A DNA stretch of 64,000 nt from Skeletonema tropicum (Eukaryota; Bacillariophyta; Thalassiosirophyceae; Thalassiosirales; Thalassiosiraceae). The first letter of the stretch is position 1. The number at the start of each line of letters is the position of its first letter. The DNA lies in assembly GCA_037178625.1 (NCBI GenBank), contig CM074146.1:372001-436000 (forward strand), in the 5' to 3' direction. Shown here piece after piece: positions 14,251-55,019 of this stretch. The position numbers and the translations under genes were made by a program. The notes under the pieces are model-generated. The model searched no databases, was not told where the DNA came from, and was given only the letters and a program-made list of their open reading frames with translations.

Positions 14251-15838
14251 TGGAGAAAATAGAAGCGATTATGATGAAGAGGTATGGATGGAAATGATGA
14301 ATAGGAGCGGGAATGAGTATGGATGAGAAAGGCAACTTTCTCTCTTCCAAGTCAAAGCACGTCAACGACAACTTTACCACCGAAGATCAGGAATAGCATA
14401 TGGAAGTGGTGAGACGCCAAAAAAGAAAATAAGCTAAGTATTTAGAGAAGTGATTTAGATGAGTAGCTTTTCAGCTTGTTTACACGAACTCTTCGAAGTG
14501 CAAATGTGCTTTTGCTATAATATCGCCGCCTAGTAATGGGCCACTAGAGGAACTCATGCGCATATTCACAACGAGAGATATGATCAGAGGTATGTAAATT
14601 CACTTCTTTACTTTTTCCGAACAAACATTTCTCTTGTAGCTTCTTATTGAGTGTGATTTGTAACATAAAGCTTCGAAAACATAGAAGATCAAAGCTTCAA
14701 GTTCAAAAGTGAACTCTCCTTTGTGGTATAATTGAGATGCAACATGAGCGGCGAGCCTTCCGAAGTCAAAAGAGCTCAAGCTTGCAGAGAGGGAGCTTGT
14801 GAGCTGGAGCTTGTTATTTTATATGATGCTACGAGTAACGATACAACATAAGTCCATAACATACAACTTGACTGTTACAGATAAACCGTCCATCTCCATC
14901 ATCGGAGATGCAATTCCAAAGGAAGGAACTTTATCAAGCATAAATTCTTGAGGAGTGCCTACGACGATAATCCACTGTCATCCAATGCGCTCTTCCCCTG
15001 TGATAGTGTCGTGGCTGTCAAGACAACCCAACCCTAATCCGATTGTTTATTGAGACTCAACGATAGATAGCGATACCATCGGAATCGGCCGAGGTGTTAC
15101 AAACTCGGTTTGGAACCGGTCAGGACCCGAGTTCATGGATAAAGACGAGCAGCTCGTCACCATAGGCATGGGAAGCTCATCGCTTGGTGGGAAGCTGTGT
15201 GTGGGCGGAAAAGATAAAAAACAGAGTCAGAGAGAGATTGGCCGATGAGCAATGTAAATCAAAATAACGCTGTGAACTCAACTCACCAGAATCCCCCAAT
15301 AGCGATGACTCGGCTGGGGTCGCTCTTTTGCTGGACGGGGCGGCCTCATCTCGCTTTGTTTTTGCTCAAAGCGGAGAATGGAGTGGCCGATACCTATGCT
15401 TTTGATGAAGATCTTATCTTCGTTTTATGAAAGATTGAGAGTGAGTGAGTGAGTGAGTGAGTGAGTGATAAAAGATCTTTCGTCTTTGCTGGGTGCACGG
15501 CTCCTCTTTTTTGATGTACGTGGTCGCTCGGTTTGCGAATCTTCGGACAGCTGACAGCTGACATTTTGACGTGTCTGTCAACTCCAACTGTCTCATGCGA
15601 CAAGGGGATCTTTTCTCTTCTCTTGCTCTGTCTTCTCTTTTTCTTCTTTGACTTTCCTCGTACTATTCATCACTTTTTGTGTCTTGGCTTGCTTATCGCA
15701 GCGCACAAAGCAATTACCTAAAGCCCCACACAAAGCGACGGCGTCGACAACAACAACCAACTCTCCCAATCAATCCAACCGATAAATAATTCGAGCACAC
15801 TCCTAATTCCCTCCTATCCATTCTACTCGACCCCAATC
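14251..15838. other. intergenic with short repeats
   Basis: No gene recognised. It holds a 32-nt exact repeat at 14780-14811 (also at 34082-34113) and a GTGA/GAGT microsatellite near 15437-15468. 15720-15838 is the presumed leader of the Fanzor gene. Confidence 0.45.
14780..14811 (+). repeat. 32-nt exact repeat, copy 1
   Basis: Starts GCTTGCAGAGAGGGAGC and ends GAGCTGGAGCT. An identical copy lies at 34082-34113 in the same orientation. The surrounding bases differ. Confidence 0.7.
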
Positions 15839-16314
15839 ATGCCTCCAAGAAGAAAGCGATTTCGCCAAAAATTCACCCAGGGAGGAAAGAAATCAAATAA
15901 GACTTCCGTTGTCGTATCGCGAAAAGTTCCAACGAGTATGATATTGAAAGGCAGTCAACGAAATCAAGATGCAATAACACATCAAATGGCTGCTGATAGT
16001 CACTATTGCACCATGACATCCCAATATGCAAGCCTCTCTCTTCACACACTATTATGCTTTTTCCGGGACAATATCAATATTCGCCAGCAACACAGAGATG
16101 ACGTCATCGACGAAGGTGATAATCTCCCAAATATGACTGATCAAACAATATGGGAGCACCTCGTCAAAAGAGATCTCTCAAGATGTCGAAATATATCCAT
16201 CCCATGATTCAACGTGTAAAGAGGTATATGGTTGAGAACTTCTTACATCATTTTCGTATTGAAGATGGAGAGAGCTCCAATAGCTCCGGACAAGATTAAT
16301 ACACCGCTAGACGT
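15839..16314 (+). CDS. Probable 5' coding part of the Fanzor gene (frame unresolved)
   Basis: From the ATG at 15839 a basic N-terminus (PPRRKRFRQKFTQGGKKSNK, a likely nuclear-localisation stretch) leads into a structured segment ending IWEHLVKRDLS. That frame stops at 16205-16207. A second frame continues the helix in register (KMSKYIHPMIQRVKRYMVENF), as if one base were missing near 16180. The second frame hits TAA at 16297-16299, but a plausible 87-nt intron (16224-16310, GTATATGG to GATTAATACACCGCTAG) removes that stop and joins R to RMMTNYLNF in the frame of the downstream core. So the gene may be intact except for one frameshift or a misread intron. Confidence 0.55.
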
Positions 16315-18762
16315 ATGATGACTAACTATCTGAATTTTATGAACAATATCCCAACCTACATCAAATGGGTCTGCACCGACTTTATCAAAATGAATTACTC
16401 AAACATCACAGGGAAACTCCTGAAAAGTATCGCCGAAGTGATGTCATTCGAGGTCCTCAATATTCCGCACAGACGTCAATTCGATATATTGGCAGATGCT
16501 GATGGGGATGCAAGGCTGCTCATTGATGAGATGAGAGAGGTGTTAGGACTTGAAGATGGCGTTACCACACCACGGATTGATGAAAAATGGATCGAAAATG
16601 ATTTGAAAGATGGTACTAACAATGCCGTCAAACTTCTATTCTTTCTTTCCGAGAGACAGATAGTTCGATCATCTCAAACTCATCAGTGTAGGAGAATCCC
16701 GATCTGTCCCATTTCAAGTAAGCGAGCACAATATCCAACATACGCTACTTTAGAAGCGACATTTTTGCTTCAAAAGGTTGGCTTGTGGCCAGCACGACAT
16801 CGTGGTAAGAAAGATCGGAATAACAAAGACATCGTTCATCGAATCCTTTCCCAACATATTGATATCCGGACGTTTGACAAATCCAATGAGAAAATCACTC
16901 AAACATACCGAAGCTTCAAGGGAAATGGAATTCAAATTATTGTGATCCTCGACAAGACGAAGAAGTCAACTCCAATTCCTGTTCGTGATGAAGTGGGGGA
17001 TCCTGAAAACACTATCACATATGAATTCAAGGATAACAGCAAAGATAACAGCAGCAGCGAGACAGTGTTTGGCCGTGGCTCCCAAGAAGAATTGCGTCTT
17101 CGATGTCTTAATGGCAACATCTACACAGGAAGTGAATTAGTGGAATCGCAGAACATTGACATCTTCGCATTTGATCCCGGCGTTATTCAAAACACGATCG
17201 TGAGATTACAGCCAAATCAAGATGGCACAGTGGAAGTAACCGAGACACATATTCTGACCACCAGAAAGATTTACGAAGAAAGCATGGCCAGGAAGAGTAC
17301 ACGAACTGGCGGGCGGGTGTTCAAGAGTCATCTTCAGATCTATGAAGATGATCTATCTCGGCGAGGGTCCTTGAAGAGTCCTTTTATTCAAGACAATTCA
17401 AATTGTCTCCAAATCATGAGACAATCTACATGGCTGAGATGTCTTCTACGATCGCTGATCCCCTCTTCAGTCGCTACCGATTTGATTGAAGAATTTTTGG
17501 GCGACACACGCCTTGACCTTCACATTCATGTTGATATGGAAACAAGCGAGGATCGCAAGAACCTTCATCTTACTACCTTCCTCCTACGACGTCAAATACT
17601 CGACAGATTTTTTTCCTTCTTTAAGAAGACACCGAAGCAAGCATTAGTGATAATTGAATCGGGTAAATTCTCACCGACTGCTGGTGGTAACGAAGCCGTG
17701 CCAATGAATGACATCATGCACGCGATCGTAGTGGCTACATGCGGCAATGTTGCCTTTGCTCCTTGCTGGCGCACTTCATCCTATTGTCCAGCCTGTGGCA
17801 AAGCTGTATTCTCAGTAACGAAAGGTACAAAGGTCCAAAGAGGTCTCAAATACTGTAAACACTGTAAGAGGCTTTTCGATAGAGATGTTCTTGGGGCCAC
17901 AAATGCTGGGATATGTGCTATCTTCTATCCAGATAGATTCGATCGGAGCTCAACAATAGGCCAGGAGGAATTGCCCACGGAATCGCTCATCGTCCCCTGT
18001 CAGCTACCTACTTGTGAGAGAACAAGAGAAGCGCAGTTCCAACAAGTGCGAGCAATGATTTCAATCTTACAGACAGAAGAGGGGAGATCCAAATTTTTTG
18101 AAATCACAGATCATTCCATTATCTACAAATGGCTGAGTGGAAGAATGAACTTTCCGTGTTGGTTGAATAATCTCTTTCGAGTGTTTATTTACCTCAAGGA
18201 TGTAACTCTCATCGATCACTGGCTGTCCAAAGCAAGTAAACATAGCTTCTTGGAATTAAAGACGCTCGAAGAGAATTTCTTCCGTGGATACCCCCCTTTC
18301 TTTGGAGTGCAAAATTCGACTAGTCGAAGCAATGAAGTATATACTGCATTGATTTCCCATCTCATCAATTTGATCAACCTCAAAAGTCATCTACAATCAA
18401 GAGGCAATGAGACTCCAGATGATGAAAATTATTTTACCCCTGATGAACAATTGAATGTTCTGTTTCGCTTCCGCAAAAATACACTTGACCTACGACGTCA
18501 AGAACCTTCTCTGTCTAAGTGGCAAAATGTGGTAATTTCAAGCACAAAGCGATCTGTCGCTGGGTATGAAAAGGTCATAAAGAGTATTGAGAAGGTATCT
18601 TCGCCAAACAAACTGTCCGAGAATGCTGTGCAAAGACAAACAGACCCTATGGATATGCCTATGTACGAGCCAATGGTTGAGGTTGAGTCTTTGGATGAGT
18701 CTATGCATAGCCAGCCAGCCGTCATCATTGGCTACAATTCCAGAGGATACAGAAGCGCCTGA
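16315..18762 (+). CDS. Fanzor: eukaryotic TnpB-like RuvC endonuclease
   Basis: 815-codon uninterrupted frame (first Met; true translation probably begins upstream). The C-terminal half is a complete RuvC/zinc-finger module of the TnpB/Fanzor/Cas12 kind. RuvC-I is FAFDPGVIQN (D287). RuvC-II is VIIESGKFSP (E448). Then SSYCPACGK (C491, C494), YCKHCKRLFDRDVLGATNAG (C514, C517 and RuvC-III D524; N530 matches the N of DRD-x-NAA-x-N). Spacing and order match TnpB. Residues before 287 would form the REC/WED-like part and are not recognisable. TnpB and Fanzor proteins are RNA-guided DNA nucleases encoded in transposons; their guide RNA usually overlaps or follows the gene's 3' end. Here the 3' end runs into a minisatellite. 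No terminal inverted repeats were found around it. Catalytic residues are intact; expression and activity are untested. Confidence 0.85.
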   Translation: MMTNYLNFMNNIPTYIKWVCTDFIKMNYSNITGKLLKSIAEVMSFEVLNIPHRRQFDILADADGDARLLIDEMREVLGLEDGVTTPRIDEKWIENDLKDGTNNAVKLLFFLSERQIVRSSQTHQCRRIPICPISSKRAQYPTYATLEATFLLQKVGLWPARHRGKKDRNNKDIVHRILSQHIDIRTFDKSNEKITQTYRSFKGNGIQIIVILDKTKKSTPIPVRDEVGDPENTITYEFKDNSKDNSSSETVFGRGSQEELRLRCLNGNIYTGSELVESQNIDIFAFDPGVIQNTIVRLQPNQDGTVEVTETHILTTRKIYEESMARKSTRTGGRVFKSHLQIYEDDLSRRGSLKSPFIQDNSNCLQIMRQSTWLRCLLRSLIPSSVATDLIEEFLGDTRLDLHIHVDMETSEDRKNLHLTTFLLRRQILDRFFSFFKKTPKQALVIIESGKFSPTAGGNEAVPMNDIMHAIVVATCGNVAFAPCWRTSSYCPACGKAVFSVTKGTKVQRGLKYCKHCKRLFDRDVLGATNAGICAIFYPDRFDRSSTIGQEELPTESLIVPCQLPTCERTREAQFQQVRAMISILQTEEGRSKFFEITDHSIIYKWLSGRMNFPCWLNNLFRVFIYLKDVTLIDHWLSKASKHSFLELKTLEENFFRGYPPFFGVQNSTSRSNEVYTALISHLINLINLKSHLQSRGNETPDDENYFTPDEQLNVLFRFRKNTLDLRRQEPSLSKWQNVVISSTKRSVAGYEKVIKSIEKVSSPNKLSENAVQRQTDPMDMPMYEPMVEVESLDESMHSQPAVIIGYNSRGYRSA

Positions 18763-19231
18763 AGTTGAACTCCCTCCTGCGGTTACCAGCGTTACCAGCC
18801 GCGTCAACAATGAGCGACCCATTCGCAACATCCATATCAGCCAGCCGTCATCATTGGCTACAATTTCCAGAGGATACAGAAGCGCCTGAAGTTGAACTCC
18901 CTCCTGCGGTTACCAGCGTTACCAGCCGCGTCAACAATGAGCGACCCATTCGCAACATCCATATCAGCCAGCCGTCATCATTGGCTACAATTCCAGAGGA
19001 TACAGAAGCGCCTGAAGTTGAACTCCCTCCTGCGCTGGTTACCAGCGTTACCAGCCGCGTCAACGATGAGCGACCCATTCGCAACATCCATATCAGCCAG
19101 CCGTCATCATTGGCTACAATTCCAGAGGATACAGAAGCGCCTGAAGTTGAACTCCCTCCTGCGGTACCAGCGTTACCAGCCTCGTCGAACGATGATGTTA
19201 TCAACAATGAGCGACCCATTCGCAACATCAC
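18711..19231 (+). repeat. minisatellite, four units of 126-129 bp, at the Fanzor 3' end
   Basis: The sequence GTCATCATTGGCTACAATT recurs at 18721, 18847, 18974 and 19103 (spacings 126, 127 and 129), with near-identical units, and a fifth partial copy starts at 19322. Each unit can encode about 42 residues containing SSLATIPEDTEAPEVELPPA and TSVTSRVNNERPIRNIH. The Fanzor frame enters the first unit out of register by one base and stops at 18760-18762. A one-base insertion (TTT for TT) in unit 2 shifts the frame again. Confidence 0.85.
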
Positions 19232-19481
19232 GACGCAACACTATTATGTTGTGGGTCCTGGGGGCTCTATTGTGCTCATGACCCGCGACAGTATTCTAGA
19301 ATCAACAACATCCAATAGAACGTCATCATTGGCTACAATTCCAGAGGATGAAGCACTTAGTGATCTTGAAATGGAAGTACCTCCGACGGCTACCAGTACC
19401 AGCCTCGTCATCGCGCCACGATCCTGCAAGTATTATGGTGCAGCTTGGTTAGATAATCAATATTTTCACTTCTTCCATTGA
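18765..19481 (+). CDS. Repeat-encoded Pro/Glu-rich polypeptide, possible lost Fanzor C-terminus
   Basis: 238-codon frame covering the minisatellite and 250 bp beyond. After the frame correction in unit 2 it encodes copies of the 42-43 residue acidic repeat, then a unique tail (YYVVGPGGSIVLMTRDS, VPPTATSTS, ending NQYFHFFH). The Fanzor frame just upstream reads DESMHSQPA, the same as the H-x-SQP that opens each repeat, so this region was probably its C-terminal extension before two single-base changes. It is not likely to be an independent gene. Confidence 0.4.
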   Translation: MNSLLRLPALPAASTMSDPFATSISASRHHWLQFPEDTEAPEVELPPAVTSVTSRVNNERPIRNIHISQPSSLATIPEDTEAPEVELPPALVTSVTSRVNDERPIRNIHISQPSSLATIPEDTEAPEVELPPAVPALPASSNDDVINNERPIRNITTQHYYVVGPGGSIVLMTRDSILESTTSNRTSSLATIPEDEALSDLEMEVPPTATSTSLVIAPRSCKYYGAAWLDNQYFHFFH

Positions 19482-30210: not shown

Positions 30211-31200
30211 TCAAATTCCCAAGAATACTTCCATAATTTCTTTTGCTCCTTCTTTCGCAACTAATTTTGCTCCATCTTTCGCGATTGCTTTTGCCCCTTC
30301 TTTTGCGATTGCTTTTGCCCTATTAGTCTCGTCCGTGCTTTCAGTAAAGCTCTTCTGAGGTGAAGGTGGTCCAGTAAACCCAAACACTTTCATCTCCTCT
30401 TTATACATAAAATTGGCCATTTTTTCTTCGCCTGCTTTCATGGCCCAACGGAGCGGCGTATCTCCACCATTATTCTTGACATCGACATCTGCTCCCTTTT
30501 CAATGAGAACTTTGGCCACATCAACTTGTCCACGACCGCAAGCAAGATGGAGTGGCGTATCTCCATCATTATCCTTAGGATTGACGTCTGCTCCCTTTTC
30601 AATGAGAAGCTTTACCGCATCAACATGTCCATGACCGCAAGCAAGATGGAGCGGCGTATCTCCATAATTATTCTTGTCGTCGACTTTTGCCCCGTTATCA
30701 ATTAAGAGATTGATCGCATCAATCCGACCATTAGCGCAAGCCCAATGAAGCGGCGTGATAGTGTTAAGATCATCCAGTTCACTATCGAGATCTATCCCGT
30801 TCAAAATGACATGCAAAGACTGGTCTTCAGATCCAGGATTGTCTGGATTGTCGAGTCTTACTTGAATTGTATGGCCATTTCTGTATAGGATATCTGCCTT
30901 ATCGGAGGTAGGATTCCCAAACCACTCTCTGAGGGGTTCGGAGTTCAAATCCGCATATGAATTTGGACTAGCCCAGACTTGAGTCTTTTCACGGACTGGA
31001 GACCTTTCCTTATTATTTTGAATAACGTATCGAACAGCGATACTTCCTGGATCTCCATTTTCTAATACACTTCCTGTTTGGTCTCCACTCAACACCCAAT
31101 GCCCGAAGAGGAACCTTTCCTTCCCATTCTCTTGCCATGATTTCGGACTGTTCCGGAACTCTTCGCCTTCGTAAGAGTATACTATTGAAGATGCTCCCAT
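30211..31200 (-). CDS. Ankyrin-repeat protein, left arm of the inverted duplication
   Basis: 329-residue frame. Starts MGASSIVYSYEGEE (the paralog at 54342 starts MGATSSVYSYKD). Residues about 20-140 are a non-repeat domain of unknown type (FGHWVLSGDQTGSVLENGD, VRYVIQNN). About 145-260 hold three to four ankyrin units with the TPLHLACGxGxVDxxKLLIEKGADV consensus. The C-terminus has an eight-residue periodic tail (AKAIAKEGAKAIAKDGAK) made by a 24-nt tandem repeat near 30240-30320. Ankyrins bind partner proteins; there is no catalytic domain. It is intact, unlike the neighbouring BTB copy of this arm. Confidence 0.8.
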   Translation of the reverse strand: MGASSIVYSYEGEEFRNSPKSWQENGKERFLFGHWVLSGDQTGSVLENGDPGSIAVRYVIQNNKERSPVREKTQVWASPNSYADLNSEPLREWFGNPTSDKADILYRNGHTIQVRLDNPDNPGSEDQSLHVILNGIDLDSELDDLNTITPLHWACANGRIDAINLLIDNGAKVDDKNNYGDTPLHLACGHGHVDAVKLLIEKGADVNPKDNDGDTPLHLACGRGQVDVAKVLIEKGADVDVKNNGGDTPLRWAMKAGEEKMANFMYKEEMKVFGFTGPPSPQKSFTESTDETNRAKAIAKEGAKAIAKDGAKLVAKEGAKEIMEVFLGI

Positions 31201-44078: not shown

Positions 44079-47000
44079 GCTTGGATGGGGCAAAGAATGC
44101 ACGAGAGCTACTGTTACGTACAAATGCAGATGGTGACAGCTGCAATTGCAATGGCTGCCACCGAGCCATTGGGTGCACCGTGTGTGATCAATTCATTATT
44201 GGGACGGAGGAGCTGTGTTGGATAACGAAGAAAGAACTTCTAGAGCACAAAGACCGGCTTGGAGTGGAGGCATACCAAGAATATTATCACGGAGGGCAAG
44301 AAATTGACCAAGAGCTCAAACAACAGTACGAAATTAGTGGTATGGAAGGCATGCTCCTCTCAAGGCGCTTCGGTAAAGATGATGCTAGTGAATTCATGAT
44401 CTGTTCAAGCTGTAAAGCCTCTCTAAGGACCAAGAGCGAATCCCCTCCAAAATACTCGATTGCCAATGGCTTCTTGATCGAAACCATCCCTACAACCATC
44501 GCATTTGAACAAGATGGAGAGATGAAAAGCTTGAAGACAATAAAAGAGGTCCACGACGAGCACGGAAAGCCCATTCCTAATCAGACGGTGAGCTTAGTGA
44601 CGAGTGTTATGGCTGCTGCCATTTCTCCCACTCGTCCTTACGCTTATATATTCTCTTACCGAGGAGGCAGGCATCAGAGCCTTATCGGAAATTTTCAGTT
44701 CTTTGAGACGGATCAGGCGAAGATTGCGGGTGCATTAAAATGCCTACACCAATCAGGCGTTGCTTCAAATATTTATGTGGTTTTGAATGGAAGGATGACA
44801 CCAACCCAAAAAGATATTGTTCGCAAAAAGGCGGAGCTGGACACGGATCTTTACTTCGGTTTGCTTCACTGGTTCAAGGAACACCACCCCGCATTTAGGG
44901 ACTTGGTAATCGAGGATGAAAGTTCAGCTGTAAAGATTGAGTTGGTAGAAGATCCAGATTCCGATTCAAACACAGATATATCTGGGGACCCTACAAAAGA
45001 GAATAAGGAAGACGGTGCTACATTTTACTTTTCTGGTGGAGGGGAACCAACAACAGACACAAGTGTGTACAAAACGAGTAGGGAACTTGTGATGGCCATT
45101 CTGAAAGATCACTCGGCGCCAACGCTTGCTATACACGGGGGCAATTATGCGAGTCATTTGGATGTAATGAAGTTGGAAAGTGTGTTTCCTACTGTATTCC
45201 CATTTGGAAGTGGAGGGCCGACTCTAGAACGCCGCAATAAGATATCTGATGAGGAAATAATTCGGCATTATCTAAGGTTGCCCCTGCCTCAGTTCATGGA
45301 AAGTGAATTTGTGCTTGTCGCAAACTTTTTACTTGGGAGGATATTATCATTTAAGAGCGCCGTGATGAAATGTAGGCCACTGGTTAATGAACATGGTGAA
45401 GCAGTTGGTGATGAAATCGGCAAAATGACCATCGAGGAAATTGAAGAAGCAATCAACGAGGAGCAAACCAACAAGAATAGTACTAGTACAGCCAGCAAGT
45501 TTCTCAAGGCCGTGAGCGCATCTTGCCGGCATTTGGGCGTGAATGAAGAAGCTGCAAAGAGCGCTAGGCGGAAGTGCTTTGCCCTTCAGGACTTCTTCGG
45601 AATGCACTCTCTCTTTGTAACAATAACGATCGACGACGAGTGTAGCTTCAGAGTGCGACTATACCCATATGCGGATGCCAATGGCGAAGGAGTAAGTCTG
45701 CTTTGTAATGTAACTCGTAGTGGCAGATTGATGTTATTAGGGCAAACACTCATCTTTTATTTTTTTCGTTGGGCGTGTTTCCAACATAGACGTCACTGCC
45801 TCCACTGGACTCGTCCGATGCGGAATGCTTAGCTGATCTGACGTTACGGCGAAGAATCCGACGGAAATATCCCGGAGCCTGTTCTCTAGAGTTTCAGGGT
45901 GCGATGCAGATAGCTTTAGAGTGCTTGTTTGGTTGGGAACCGAAGAAGCAGAGGGGGGAAAGGATGTTGTTTGGAATAATGGAGGCTTATTGCAGAGCTG
46001 ACGAGGAGCAAGGAAGAGGGTCACTCCATTCCCACTGGCTTGTGTGGATAAAGCACTTTGGTCAATTGAGACGCCTGCTGTTTGCCAAAGATGAGCAGAC
46101 AAGAGAACTTGCAAGAGCCAGCTATATTGCATACGTGAACAAGATAATGTGCGCTCGTCAATGTGATTTTGAAGTCGAGGTTACGCATACATGTTGTGTT
46201 TGTGGAACAGATAAGAAGGGATCCACAAATGAACTACTCCAGAATCGCAGCCCCAACATATTCAGAGAAGCCAGGCACGAGGAAGGATGCCAGGCAGTTA
46301 AAGGACAAGTGATGTCATGGATACCGTGTGGATGTGTGACGCCCAAAGCCTCCAACTTTGAGGATGTGGCAATAGATGAGGAAGTGGCGTCCACCATCGA
46401 TGTTACCACAGAGGTGCTGAAGAACCTTCAACAAGGATCCTCCACAAACTCATTAAATTATCCGCTTTCCAAGGAAAGGCTGGACATCGCCGCTTATCGT
46501 ACCATGTATGATGTACCAGATGTTAACGGCTCAGATCCTGATTCAATATCGAGGTACATCCTTTCGAATGAACGATTTAATCAGCATGCAACGTTACATG
46601 CTTCTTCTTGTTTTAAGAAAGGGTGTGAATGCCGTTTCCTGTTTCCCTTTCTGGCGACTTCTGGAAGTAGACTTGATATTTTTGTAGCTGACTTGATGAA
46701 AGATCTGCTTCTTTTATGGCGAAAGAAGGAGCAACACTGTCAGTCAGAAGGAGAAGGAAATTGCCAATGGTCAGAAGAGGACATTGACGAAAGAATAAAC
46801 AGTTTGATTGAACGCCTGTCCGAGGCCAATTCTAGCGATTCTGGCGATGTCGAGAATCTTATCCAGGAAGTTGCTGCCGTGGCTAAATCGATCGAGGATG
46901 CAGCTGATAAGACTAACACGGCTACCATGAAGGACTTGTCCAAGGATGCTGCTGCCGTGAATAACCTGGCCAAGGAAGTGGCAAAGAACAAAGGGACACG

Positions 47001-50000
47001 GGTGTATGATGGGAATACACCGATTGAGGTAATGCGGCACACATTGGATGGTAGTACTTGCAGAGAGAACAGGTTCGTTGTCGAAATTCAGCGCCCTCAG
47101 GGGTGCCAATTTATGAACGTTTACAATCGAGTGTTGTCCCATATATTCACTTGCAACACAAACGTTGCAGTCGGTGATTCGGGGCAAACTTGGTACCAGA
47201 CACTTTACAACTGCAAAAATACACAGTCTGACGACAGAGAACCGAGGGATGTTGTTGCTAAGAGTGTCATCAGGCGATTGTTCAGGGCACAACGTGAGAA
47301 GGAAGAACGCGAACAGTCAGGGGAGGGGACCAAAGAAGAAGAAAGAGAAATAAATACCTGGGTTGAGGGCCTGTCTCGAGTTCTATCGGGAATCAACGCG
47401 GCGACATCTCGGAATGTAATTAGTGCTCCGATGAGCCACAACCTTGCGTCTAATAAAGGATCGAGGTTTCATTTCTCTCATGACTTTGCGGAGTTGCTCG
47501 TGGGTCAGTTAGCAGAAGTTTTGGAGAATGGGAGCGATGAGGTATGCTCCATAGTTCGGATATGCAAGGAGGGTGGCAAGAAGATGACGCAATGGAAGGA
47601 CGTATCTGCCAACGATTACATTTATCGGCCCAAAGACTTGGAAGCTCTCTGCTTTTACCAGCAATCAATGTATTACACAAAGGGGTACAAGAAGGATGGT
47701 CTGTCCAATGATGCCGAAACGAAACAAATGGCATTTGAAAAGGGTCACCCTGGAGTGGACTTCGCGTATCTGAGCAAGCTCAATCGTGTCAGAATCCCAA
47801 ACGTGTCACTGCCCGATGGCAGCCTCTGCCGCATCGAAGAACTTCGCATCAACGACGATGCACCCAGCGAAGACGTGAAAAAGAAACGAGAGAATTATGC
47901 AAAGATGGCTCTATTGATGTTCTGTCCCTTTCATGGGGAAAATGGATTAGAAGTTTTGAAGGGGGGACGGACCGAAGGGGATGGTTACTGGAACAGATTC
48001 AATGCGTTCCGTATTGAGTACTATAGACAGATGGAGCATCTTTCATATAAAGAAAAATGTGAGACGGAGTTCCTGCTGCCGCCGAGTGCTATTGACATCA
48101 AGGACGACAAAAGCTTGTTATCGAAACAGTATTTGGATTTGAATAAGGGCAGAGGAGAAAAGGACAATGAACCTGGAGCCACTTTCTGGATAAAGGGATT
48201 TGATATTTTACAGAATAATGAGGACAGAATGAGTATGGAACAATGTCAAGGCCGCGCTACGGACGTAATTTCAGACCTTGCACCTTTCCCAGAGAAATAC
48301 GCTGAAAGGGATGCACGAGAGGACTCGGAAAAGCAGGATGACAATCTAGCAAAAGATATCGCCTTTTACTGTGCACAATATGAAGATGAGGAGGAGGGGG
48401 AAGAAGACAAGAATTTTGCCCGCGCCTACACTCACAAGAGGCTCCTCGATCCGACCAACATTACCCATACCCGTATCGTGGAAGCCCGTCTTGCATCGTC
48501 ATCGTCGGATGAATCAATCATCTCCAGCTCGACCAATAATACTGCTATCTCTGGAAATGATAGTGATAGTGGTGCATCTACCACTACCACCACCGCTACC
48601 ACAGCATCAAATGACCGAAAGTCCGAGGAGATAGAGAGGGGATCATACCCCACTATCATACAGCTTATCAAGGGTTCACTCCTGGGTGGAGGGAATTACG
48701 ATGATGTTTACTCCACAGATGAATGCGACTGCAACATGGTCATTCCTGTTCCGGATTCGCCGCATAAGCAAGGATGTGCTGGGGAGGACAAACCTCAACA
48801 GGTTTCAGTTCCTACACTCGAAGGTGTTGCTCGTGCTGTCCTGCGGGAGGAAAAGAAACGCCTCGACGAGAAACAATACATCATGTACGAAGTGATCGCC
48901 TGTTCATTCTTGCTTGGTTTATTGACGCAAGACGAAGAGGGCGCAACGTTACTAGAGGGACTGAGGACTGCAATCGGGCAAGATACCATGAACGATATCG
49001 AGGCCTTGAAGCAGGAATTGCGAGAGAGGGGAGGAAGAGAGCAGCTGCTCATGTTTGTGACGGGATTTGCCGGAGCAGGTAAAAGCACCGCGATCAAGAT
49101 TGCACAGAAGTTTTGCTACGAATTTTGCAAGGCGACTTCTATCATGTGGGCGGATAATACATTTCTGTTTACTGCCTACACTGGATCAGCTGCTGCTGCA
49201 TTTGGGGGACTCACCACAGTGAAAGCGACCTACATCGGCAAAAAGGGCAGCACTCCACACTTGAGCGTTGATGAGGAGAAGGCGTTTGAGGGTGTCCGCA
49301 TCCTCATAATCGACGAGGTGTCGTTCCTGAAAGATAACGAGCTTTTGAAACTTGATAGGACTTTGCAGAGGATTGGTAATAATCGCCAGCCGTTTGGGGG
49401 GTATAGCATCATATTTGCTGGAGACTTTCAACAAAACGAGCCTATTCGGATGAAAGCATCGCAAAAGTTATGGCACCACACATCCTCGAGACATTTTGAG
49501 AACAACATCAACTGTGCCATCATCCTGGATGGTATCCACCGATTTAAAGACGATGAAAGATATGGGCACATTCTTCAGAGATTGTGCAGAGGAGAAATGA
49601 CACAGGAGGACGTGGATGAACTCAACAAGAGATACGTTGGTGATAATGGTATACAATTACCCAAGAAATTCGATGGAGATACTTGCTACGCTTGTGAGAC
49701 CAATAAACAAAGGAATGCAATCACAGCGGCCATATTTCAAGAGCATCTCAGGCAAACACACCCACAAGCTGGTGACGCCAACGATCCCCCCAAGCATACT
49801 ATTATTATAAAAGGCCTAATAGAGTCAGTAACTTCATCGGATGCAAAAGTTGGTACGCTGCGCCAGAGGATAATTGAACTCGGAGATACTGACGTGAGAC
49901 ATGGAACAAAATTGATAAGTCCACATCTTTGTTGCTATATTGGCGCGTATTTCATGTGCAATTCAAACGATAATCTGAAGGAACAGGGAACGGGTAACGG

Positions 50001-50541
50001 GACTCAGGCTCGACTAGTTCGGGTGAAATTGAGAGACAACCCAATTAGCTATGGGTGCGAAGTGTGGGACGGAAGAAAGGTCTGGACTGTCTGCGCATCG
50101 GATGTGGAATTTGCTGAGTTCGAACACTATCCCAGAAAAGGAGATTCGCCAAGGTATTTCAAACTCAAGCCCAAAAAGGTCACTGCCATAGCGGAGGTAA
50201 CACCACACGACATGACGAAAGAGACAGTACCGATGGCGTGCAGCGTAACTCAACTTCCGGTGAATGCAAGCGACGCCATTACAGGACACAAACTACAAGG
50301 TTTGACGAAAGACAATGTCATTGTATGCTCCTGGCAGAGGTCTACTAACTGGATATACGTTGTTCTTTCGCGGGTTCGGACCCTGGCAGGCCTCTATTTG
50401 TTCCGAAGACTTAAGCTCAGCGATATCAAACCACCATCACGAGACTACATGGCCTTCCTTGACCGAATGAGAGATCTTCAACAAATTGATTTGGACAGGA
50501 CGAGGAGACGAGGACGTCGTGAAGATGTAAATGTAGCGTAG
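44060..50541 (+). CDS. Helitron Rep-helicase protein, main part
   Basis: Exons to 45691 and from 45790 (98-nt intron, GTAAGT..ACATAG, phase 0) give one frame to the stop at 50539-50541. Order: a Cys-rich start (CNCNGCHRAIGCTVC), a DUF6570-like region (YAYIFSYRGGRHQSLIGNFQ, VLNGRMTPTQKDIVRKKA), Helitron_like_N (FFGMHSLFVTITIDDECSFRV, then LRRRIRRKYPGACSLEFQGA), the HUH motif RGSLHSHWLVW (His codons 46027 and 46033), HASSCFKKGCECRF, and the two-tyrosine motif WYQTLYNCKNTQ (Tyr codons 47194 and 47206). The PIF1-like helicase has Walker A GFAGAGKST (49063-49089), ILIIDEVSF, FAGDFQQNEP, and C-terminal DAITGHKLQGLT and YVVLSRVRTLAGLYLF. All catalytic motifs are present. The protein would nick DNA and drive rolling-circle transposition. 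Confidence 0.88.
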
Positions 50542-54341: not shown

Positions 54342-55019
54342 ATGGGAGCAACTTCATCAGTCTACTCTTACAAAGACGTCGACGCCAAGGGTGATAAGGG
54401 GTTTACGCAGCTCCATCTCGCTTGTAGTGCGGGACAAGTTGATATGGCCAAGCTTCTCATTGAAAAGGGAGCTGACGTCAATGCCAAGGATGATGATGAT
54501 GATACGCCGCTCCATTATGCTTGCCTTGAGGGACAAGTTGATGTGATCAAGCTTCTCATTGAAAAGGGAGCAAATGTCAATGCCAAGAATAATGATGAAG
54601 GCACACCGCTCCATTATGCTTGCGATGAGAGGTATGTTGATGTGGCCGAGCTTCTCATTGATAACGGGGCAGAAGTCGACGACAAGGATATTTACGAGAC
54701 TACGCCGCTCCATGAAGCTTGCAGAAAGGGACATGTTGATGTGGCCAAGCTTCTCATTGAAAAGAGAGCAGATGTCAATGCCAAGGGTATGTGTGGGGCT
54801 ACGCCGCTCCATGTTGCTTGCAATATGGGACAAGTTGATGCGGCCAAACTTCTCATTGAAATGGGAGCAGATGTCAATGCAACCGATAATGATGGAGATA
54901 CGCCGCTCCGTTGGGCCGTGAAGGAAGGCCAAGAAGAAATGGTCAATTTTATGGCTAAAGCGGAGATGAAAGTGAAAGTGTTAGAGACCACCTTCACCTC
55001 AGAAGAGATAGGGACGTGA
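54342..55019 (+). CDS. Ankyrin-repeat protein, right arm
   Basis: 225-residue frame starting MGATSSVYSYKDVDAKGDKG. It lacks the non-repeat domain of about 120 residues found in the left-arm paralog and goes straight into six ankyrin units: FTQLHLACSAGQVDMAKLLI, TPLHYACLEGQVDVIKLLI, TPLHYACDERYVDVAELLI, TPLHEACRKGHVDVAKLLI, TPLHVACNMGQVDAAKLLI, and TPLRWAVKEGQEEMVNFMAK. It ends soon after (TTFTSEEIGT), where the left copy has the AKAIAKEG tail. The DNA repeat units are highly alike. Role is protein binding; partner unknown. Confidence 0.8.
   Translation: MGATSSVYSYKDVDAKGDKGFTQLHLACSAGQVDMAKLLIEKGADVNAKDDDDDTPLHYACLEGQVDVIKLLIEKGANVNAKNNDEGTPLHYACDERYVDVAELLIDNGAEVDDKDIYETTPLHEACRKGHVDVAKLLIEKRADVNAKGMCGATPLHVACNMGQVDAAKLLIEMGADVNATDNDGDTPLRWAVKEGQEEMVNFMAKAEMKVKVLETTFTSEEIGT

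Follow-up and report, generated by a model that had tools for sequence, protein, structure and literature searches.

Does a lone open reading frame in the diatom Skeletonema tropicum encode a Fanzor, a eukaryotic RNA-guided nuclease related to TnpB, and if so, which glutamate completes its active site? The frame lies in the 64-kb stretch analysed here (C20:372001-436000, hereafter the window) of a 78.4-Mb assembly in 125 contigs, and the contig that carries it spans 1.95 Mb, so it is not a short misbinned bacterial contig. We give about even weight to the reading that this is a single-copy, very diverged nuclease of the Fanzor1 lineage, with its catalytic glutamate moved from the place used by Fanzors (now C484) back to the place used by TnpB (E448). 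That it is a true eukaryotic Fanzor1, in which an extremely conserved glycine and the alternative glutamate became glutamate and cysteine, respectively, is a proposal we make with rather more reserve.

Two states of the RuvC-II glutamate are distinguished in the available text of Yoon et al. 2023 (PMC10711439). The canonical residue lies about 50 residues before the zinc finger and the alternative one six residues upstream of it; DPG together with the alternative glutamate is given there as the Fanzor fingerprint, and reported Fanzors with a canonical glutamate are judged to be mislabelled prokaryotic TnpBs. In SPu-1-1p, G500 and E536, 36 residues apart, are described as extremely conserved in Fanzor1 in the accessible portion of Bao and Jurka 2013 (PMC3627910). 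The matching pair in the window protein is E448 and C484, likewise 36 apart. The same two positions are separated by 36 residues in SpuFz1, GtFz1, and three of five diatom Fanzor1s, and by 35 and 30 in the other two. E448 precedes the first finger cysteine by 43 residues, as in Fanzor1 (36 + 7); a motif search of TnpBs gave 47-71.

The TnpB sample came from prokaryote genomes scanned with the peptide YTSQTCSxCG, which gave at least 118 stretches and 62 usable TnpB frames. These were classed by the residue at the alternative position, which is glutamate in 16 and another residue in 46, and columns were counted after aligning the finger region with L-INS-i. The column of E448 holds glutamate in all 46 canonical TnpBs and glycine in all 16 alternative TnpBs and all five diatom Fanzor1s. 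The column of C484 holds proline or alanine in the 46 canonical TnpBs and glutamate in the other 21 sequences. The two states are never mixed in these 67 proteins, and the window protein has the canonical state, with cysteine replacing the usual proline or alanine. Among the matches listed in open-access literature on Fanzor and the TnpB RuvC domain, there is no report of a Fanzor1 with a canonical glutamate. The placement of E448 was checked by aligning the finger region at four lengths in four MAFFT modes. All 16 runs put it in the TnpB column (with 45 of the 46 canonical rows scorable), and 12 of them also align it with the Fanzor1 glycine, which the four E-INS-i runs miss. BLASTP and hhalign likewise pair E448 with the Fanzor1 glycine.

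The preliminary description of this locus listed D287, E448, D524, a four-cysteine (C4) finger, and the motif DRDVLGATNAG in an 815-codon frame, and all of these residues are as it stated. It read them as hallmarks of Fanzor. Membership in the TnpB/Fanzor superfamily (PF07282) and kinship with Fanzor1 (trees, paralogue profile) hold, but the D-E-D set departs from the arrangement of Fanzors, since E448 is at the TnpB site and C484 at the Fanzor site. In the profile search proposed as a check, PF07282 (TNB) passes its cut-off of 26.3 bits in a six-frame search (27.6 bits) but stays below it in hmmscan (23.2 bits, E = 8e-5). The superfamily pattern D-X(125,275)-[TS]-[TS]-X-X-C4 finger-X(5,50)-RD, as it appears in the available part of PMC3627910, is present as D287, T487 S488, C491/C494/C514/C517, and R523 D524. 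The Fanzor feature DPG occurs at RuvC-I. The Fanzor alternative glutamate, seven residues before the first finger cysteine, is absent; C484 stands there, and the residue is glutamate in all five diatom Fanzor1s, GtFz1, and SpuFz1. Matches in NCBIfam, PADLOC, and PHROGs are weak, and those to TnpB, Cas12, and transposases all lie around the finger. A predicted model of the core has a RuvC-type fold, with the qualification about E448 given below. In the N-terminal part, hhalign of residues 60-168 against Fanzor1 gives E = 7.6e-6 and scores above 200 of 200 shuffles in a region that is partly acidic, and the score for WED/REC homology to Fanzor1 by hmmsearch is not above that of its shuffles.

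The window protein is 17-21% identical to the five diatom Fanzor1s in whole-length alignment. BLASTP matches residues 384-530 to one of them (P0001, E = 7e-5), and hhalign matches residues 370-545 to all five (E = 2.5e-7). A profile of the window protein and two paralogues finds GtFz1 in the PDB (E = 5.7e-5) as the sole match below E = 0.001. Alone, the whole frame finds no Fanzor in the PDB, and the core gives only unrelated matches there (E of at least 1.4). In the protein database, none of 7,996 candidates scored with the whole frame reaches E <= 1e-3, and none of 57 scored with residues 425-545 reaches E <= 1. Searches of viral contigs (window protein; alignment A2) and phage records returned no homologue. 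In trees with both glutamate positions masked, the window protein joins the five Fanzor1s (support 100/97 with 216 columns and 100/98 with 143), as it does in the unmasked tree (100/98), and the TnpBs with alternative glutamate share its side of the tree (98/92 and 93/94). The wider alignment includes the hard-to-align RuvC-I region, and these trees hold only five Fanzor1s. When the window protein is constrained to group with canonical TnpBs, the likelihood drops by 19 log units in each alignment (approximately unbiased [AU] test, p = 0.009 wider and 0.059 narrower), and grouping it with alternative TnpBs gives p = 0.03 in the wider alignment. The spacing from D287 to C491 (204) is nearer to Fanzor1 (184-193) than to TnpB (132-159). 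Taken together, the masked trees, AU results, and spacing favour descent from Fanzor1, with reversion of the glutamate, over acquisition of a bacterial TnpB.

The nuclease frame is not a product of chance, because the longest stop-free run in 300 simulated 7-kb stretches of local first-order composition is 257 codons. Each of the remaining five frames contains 28-61 stops over this interval, whose GC (guanine plus cytosine) content is 43% (44% for the window). Upstream, open runs of at least 161 codons (as at 15839-16207) occur in 42 of the 300 simulations; this length is within chance, which leaves the coding status of that stretch unsupported, and it may not be an exon. Its match on contig C14 is weak (E = 0.34), and its target is a frame that resembles an RNA methyltransferase. 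Two GT-AG pairs of up to 300 bp could span the 5' break as an intron, but both end at 16411, have poor-looking donors, and would delete sequence aligned to relatives. A 98-bp pair found by eye (16213-16310) suits the frame yet leaves TGA 16205 in an exon. The codon bias signal is too weak for choosing among frames. At the other end, the extension of about 250 residues and the repeat tail are missing from the five diatom Fanzor1s.

The preliminary description placed four near-identical units of 126-129 bp at the 3' end of the gene, where a guide RNA might lie. The array is real, although it has 3.8 copies rather than four, with unit starts at 18712, 18838, 18965, and 19094, lengths of 126, 127, and 129 bp for the first three units, and a partial fourth (period 127, 96% matches). 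Its start lies inside the 815-codon frame, in the final 48 bases. Translated, the repeat reads QPSSLATIPEDTEAPEVELPP, which is kept in the same frame in the degenerate fifth copy. Unit 1 encodes the peptide in frame 2; from unit 2, which has an extra T, it is read in frame 0, and the nuclease itself uses frame 1. The array is covered by an open stretch of 256 codons (18711-19478), and only one of the 300 simulations reached a run of that length, a comparison that is soft because the units are near-identical. The rest of the genome contains no match to the array DNA or to the repeat peptide. The array looks like an expanded protein tail, and in our reading it is, or once was, the coding end of the gene and not a guide RNA.

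Features of the nuclease locus, in window positions
Feature	Positions	Strand	Basis or remark
Upstream open stretch, different frame, stop TGA 16205	15839..16207	+	May not belong to the gene
TAA closing the nuclease frame upstream of ATG 16315	16297..16299	+	
Nuclease frame, Fanzor1 lineage, stop-free 820 codons, 815 aa from ATG 16315	16300..18759	+	Frame check, PF07282
D287 codon, RuvC-I, in FDPG	17173..17175	+	
E448 codon, in LVIIESG, glutamate at canonical (TnpB) RuvC-II position	17656..17658	+	
C484 codon, at Fanzor (alternative) glutamate position	17764..17766	+	
C4 zinc finger C491/C494/C514/C517, TNB domain	17785..17865	+	
D524 codon, RuvC-III, in DRDVLGATNAG	17884..17886	+	
C-terminal extension beyond nuclease core	17947..18711	+	No Pfam family over cut-off; no other genomic copy found
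256-codon open stretch in repeat-peptide frame (units 3-5), stop 19479-19481	18711..19478	+	
Near-identical 126-129-bp units, 3.8 copies	18712..19195	+	Reads as 42-codon peptide repeat
Degenerate fifth unit, 61% to first	19313..19384	+	Peptide SSLATIPED retained

Several results weigh against a Fanzor1 descendant with a reverted glutamate. E448 sits in a low-confidence loop of the predicted core model. A second set of 20 alignments, which includes RuvC-I and the inserts after it, is less favourable than the first. With Fanzor1s alone, E448 is recovered in three of four runs and G477 in the other. In the eight runs that combine Fanzor1s and TnpBs, the TnpB site meets K438 (three runs), E392 (one), or E393 (four), and the Fanzor1 glycine meets E448 just once; with TnpBs alone the partner is E393 (four), E392 (two), or E409 (two). 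The joint runs fail their own control, because none of the eight brings the Fanzor1 glycine and the TnpB site into one column. E392-E393 are also argued against by BLASTP, which aligns them with the P0001 segment LLSEKHLKTTKL, about 73 residues before the glycine. A second AlphaFold2 model was built on a RuvC-I-inclusive alignment of this kind and cannot arbitrate. At 3.7-4.8 changes per site the window branch is very long, which may cause long-branch effects and makes the tree unsure, and the AU test with the narrower alignment gives p = 0.059 for grouping with canonical TnpBs. The database searches found no orthologue of the window nuclease, and neither a guide RNA nor a transcript was found for this gene. 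Finally, the nuclease frame begins about 140 residues into the sequence of four of the five diatom relatives (P0002 is only about 30 residues longer), and the upstream frames end at stops 16205 and 16297 with no clean intron bridging them.

These broken ends also fit a decaying Fanzor1 relic that cuts nothing, in which cysteine has replaced the catalytic glutamate that Fanzor1 uses (E to C, now C484) and E448 is coincidental. The repeat peptide out of the nuclease frame (frame 1, then 2, then 0) and the lack of any second copy or element ends found point the same way, and we regard such a relic as a serious possibility, though a distinctly lesser one than a working nuclease. It has to accommodate 820 open codons after so many changes per site, the retention of both aspartates, the four cysteines, and the TS..C motif, and a glutamate exactly at the canonical column, an improbable coincidence that by a rough estimate about one residue in 16 would give. 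Indeed, every TnpB/Fanzor motif is retained in the open frame despite the low identity to relatives. The single copy and the C-terminal parts unlike anything in the five diatom Fanzor1s could instead reflect a host gene derived from Fanzor1 that binds nucleic acid without cutting, with the extension and repeat tail as a new working part; the retention of D287, D524, and a possible canonical glutamate speaks against it, no sign of expression was found, and we consider this unlikely.

A canonical TnpB acquired from a bacterium would account directly for a glutamate at the canonical position and for the AU result with the narrower alignment. It is very improbable given the DPG motif (found in 0 of 34 TnpB fragments compared), the Fanzor1-like spacing, the three trees that join the window protein to Fanzor1, and the location on a 1.95-Mb contig of the 78-Mb assembly. 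The least probable proposal is that the 3' array is a guide (omega) RNA or guide array, a possibility raised by its position at the 3' end of the gene, which is its sole support. The near-identical units contain no variable spacers and read as a 42-codon peptide frame that persists even in the degenerate fifth unit. Folding of the unit is unremarkable: among 25 plus-strand windows folded between 18500 and 20060, z drops below -2 just once (-2.81 at 19220, beyond the near-identical units), and Rfam has no match in the window.

The single copy also bears on the mobility of a Fanzor1-lineage nuclease at this locus. No second copy of the window nuclease was found in the genome, and a lone copy leaves transposon ends undefinable. 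In agreement with the preliminary description, inverted and direct repeats reveal no element ends among the matches listed (25/29 and 20/21). The locus is probably no longer transposing. The association with a Helitron raised earlier finds no support, as no link was found; among the matches listed, the intervals with further genomic copies are just 14500-14587 and 14683-14728, both of which lie upstream. In that listing the former matches many places at 74-84% identity, often about 184 bp apart, as in repeat genes or arrays, and the latter recurs on contig C11. The window does contain a 1545-codon frame (45904-50541) with a PIF1-like helicase domain (PF05970, E = 4.8e-14), as expected of a Helitron gene. 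Tandem repeats of 99 bp, a coding length, occur at 30450-30756 and 54431-54909 and are presumably ankyrin repeats.

The genome also contains a second, ordinary Fanzor1 family with DPG and the alternative glutamate. At E <= 1, a genome-wide search with PF07282 picks out the window and two further loci, C2:2043403 and C10:1783416. The locus on C2 (L014, C2:2038500-2048400) has an intact 799-residue Fanzor1 frame (L014:2951-5350), whose residues 596-735 retrieve the five proteins compared above, P0001 at 99% identity and the other four at 50-63%; two of the five carry an organism name, Skeletonema menzelii. Their profile finds only GtFz1 (E = 5e-4) and SpuFz1 (E = 0.027) in the PDB, with nothing else at E <= 10, and the family is therefore taken as ordinary. 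Viral scans with it gave no match. The copy on C10 (L015, C10:1778600-1788500) is interrupted by roughly 2.2 kb of inserted DNA (L015:2228-4392) that ends in 567-bp inverted repeats, 99.6% identical, and contains a minus-strand frame (L015:3285-3752) that we assume to be transposase-like. The stretch just 3' of the L014 stop (L014:5377-5640) recurs at 88-91% DNA identity at L014:337-680, about 5 kb upstream of the Fanzor1 gene, and at L015:5234-5520. Part of a fourth place matches at 78%, and none of the four is on the window's contig. A wider stretch that includes the 3' part of the gene is 70% identical between the two loci. This 3' stretch is a candidate guide (omega) RNA or element end, and only a candidate because a frame on the other strand overlaps it. 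The minus-strand frame L014:5415-6137 is convergent with the Fanzor1 gene and weakly matches an Ulp1 protease (PF02902, E = 0.011; 16 bits, cut-off 20.7).

If the window gene is a working Fanzor1-lineage nuclease, its action can be outlined from characterised Fanzors, as portrayed in the available portions of PMC10432273 and PMC11423790. The protein, predicted to be made and active, would bind a guide RNA, itself a prediction, from its own 3' region or supplied from elsewhere, and the guided protein would open target DNA beside a short motif. D287, E448, and D524 may form one metal-binding site, and cleavage would use these three residues. The outcome would be RNA-guided cutting from a chromosomal locus that probably lost transposition. 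In the accessible text of PMC11423790, GtFz1 is active with asparagine as its third catalytic residue, and on this ground Fanzor active sites are not rigid.

If a Fanzor1-lineage protein does use E448, it breaks the published rule placing the Fanzor glutamate at the alternative site, the site can move in either direction, and a lone chromosomal gene may be a captured RNA-guided nuclease. The part of PMC10711439 that discusses glutamate position suggests that the repositioned residue may reduce genome-damaging single-strand trans-cleavage, which may explain why eukaryotes tolerated that clade alone. A canonical arrangement in a eukaryotic Fanzor1-lineage protein would make this idea directly testable, by asking whether E448 is catalytic and whether trans-cleavage is back. 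If the gene is instead a relic, it still cautions that a D-E-D series in the expected order is not enough to mark a Fanzor.

Compared with Fanzor1 (the diatom family of L014 and P0001-P0005, and the solved members GtFz1 of G. theta in 9cer and SpuFz1 of S. punctatus in 8gkh), the window protein shares DPG, the TSS..C4 finger, RD, the spacing from RuvC-I to the finger, and its tree position. It differs in having glutamate at the canonical site and cysteine at the alternative one, where Fanzor1 has glycine and glutamate, and in its very long branch, long C-terminal extension, repeat tail, and lack of a second copy found. With canonical TnpB (46 of 62 sampled) it has in common the canonical RuvC-II glutamate and a non-glutamate residue at the alternative site. 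TnpB, however, has D(L/F/I/R/V/M/K)G in place of DPG and 47-71 residues in place of 43 between the glutamate and the first finger cysteine, whereas the window protein has a Fanzor1-like insert between RuvC-I and RuvC-II and is encoded on a eukaryotic contig. The 'Fanzor2' sequences with canonical glutamate considered in the available text of PMC10711439 also combine that residue with an origin in eukaryotic data. Those are judged there to be mislabelled prokaryotic TnpBs, many on contigs below 10 kb, whereas the window nuclease lies on a contig of 1.95 Mb and groups with Fanzor1.

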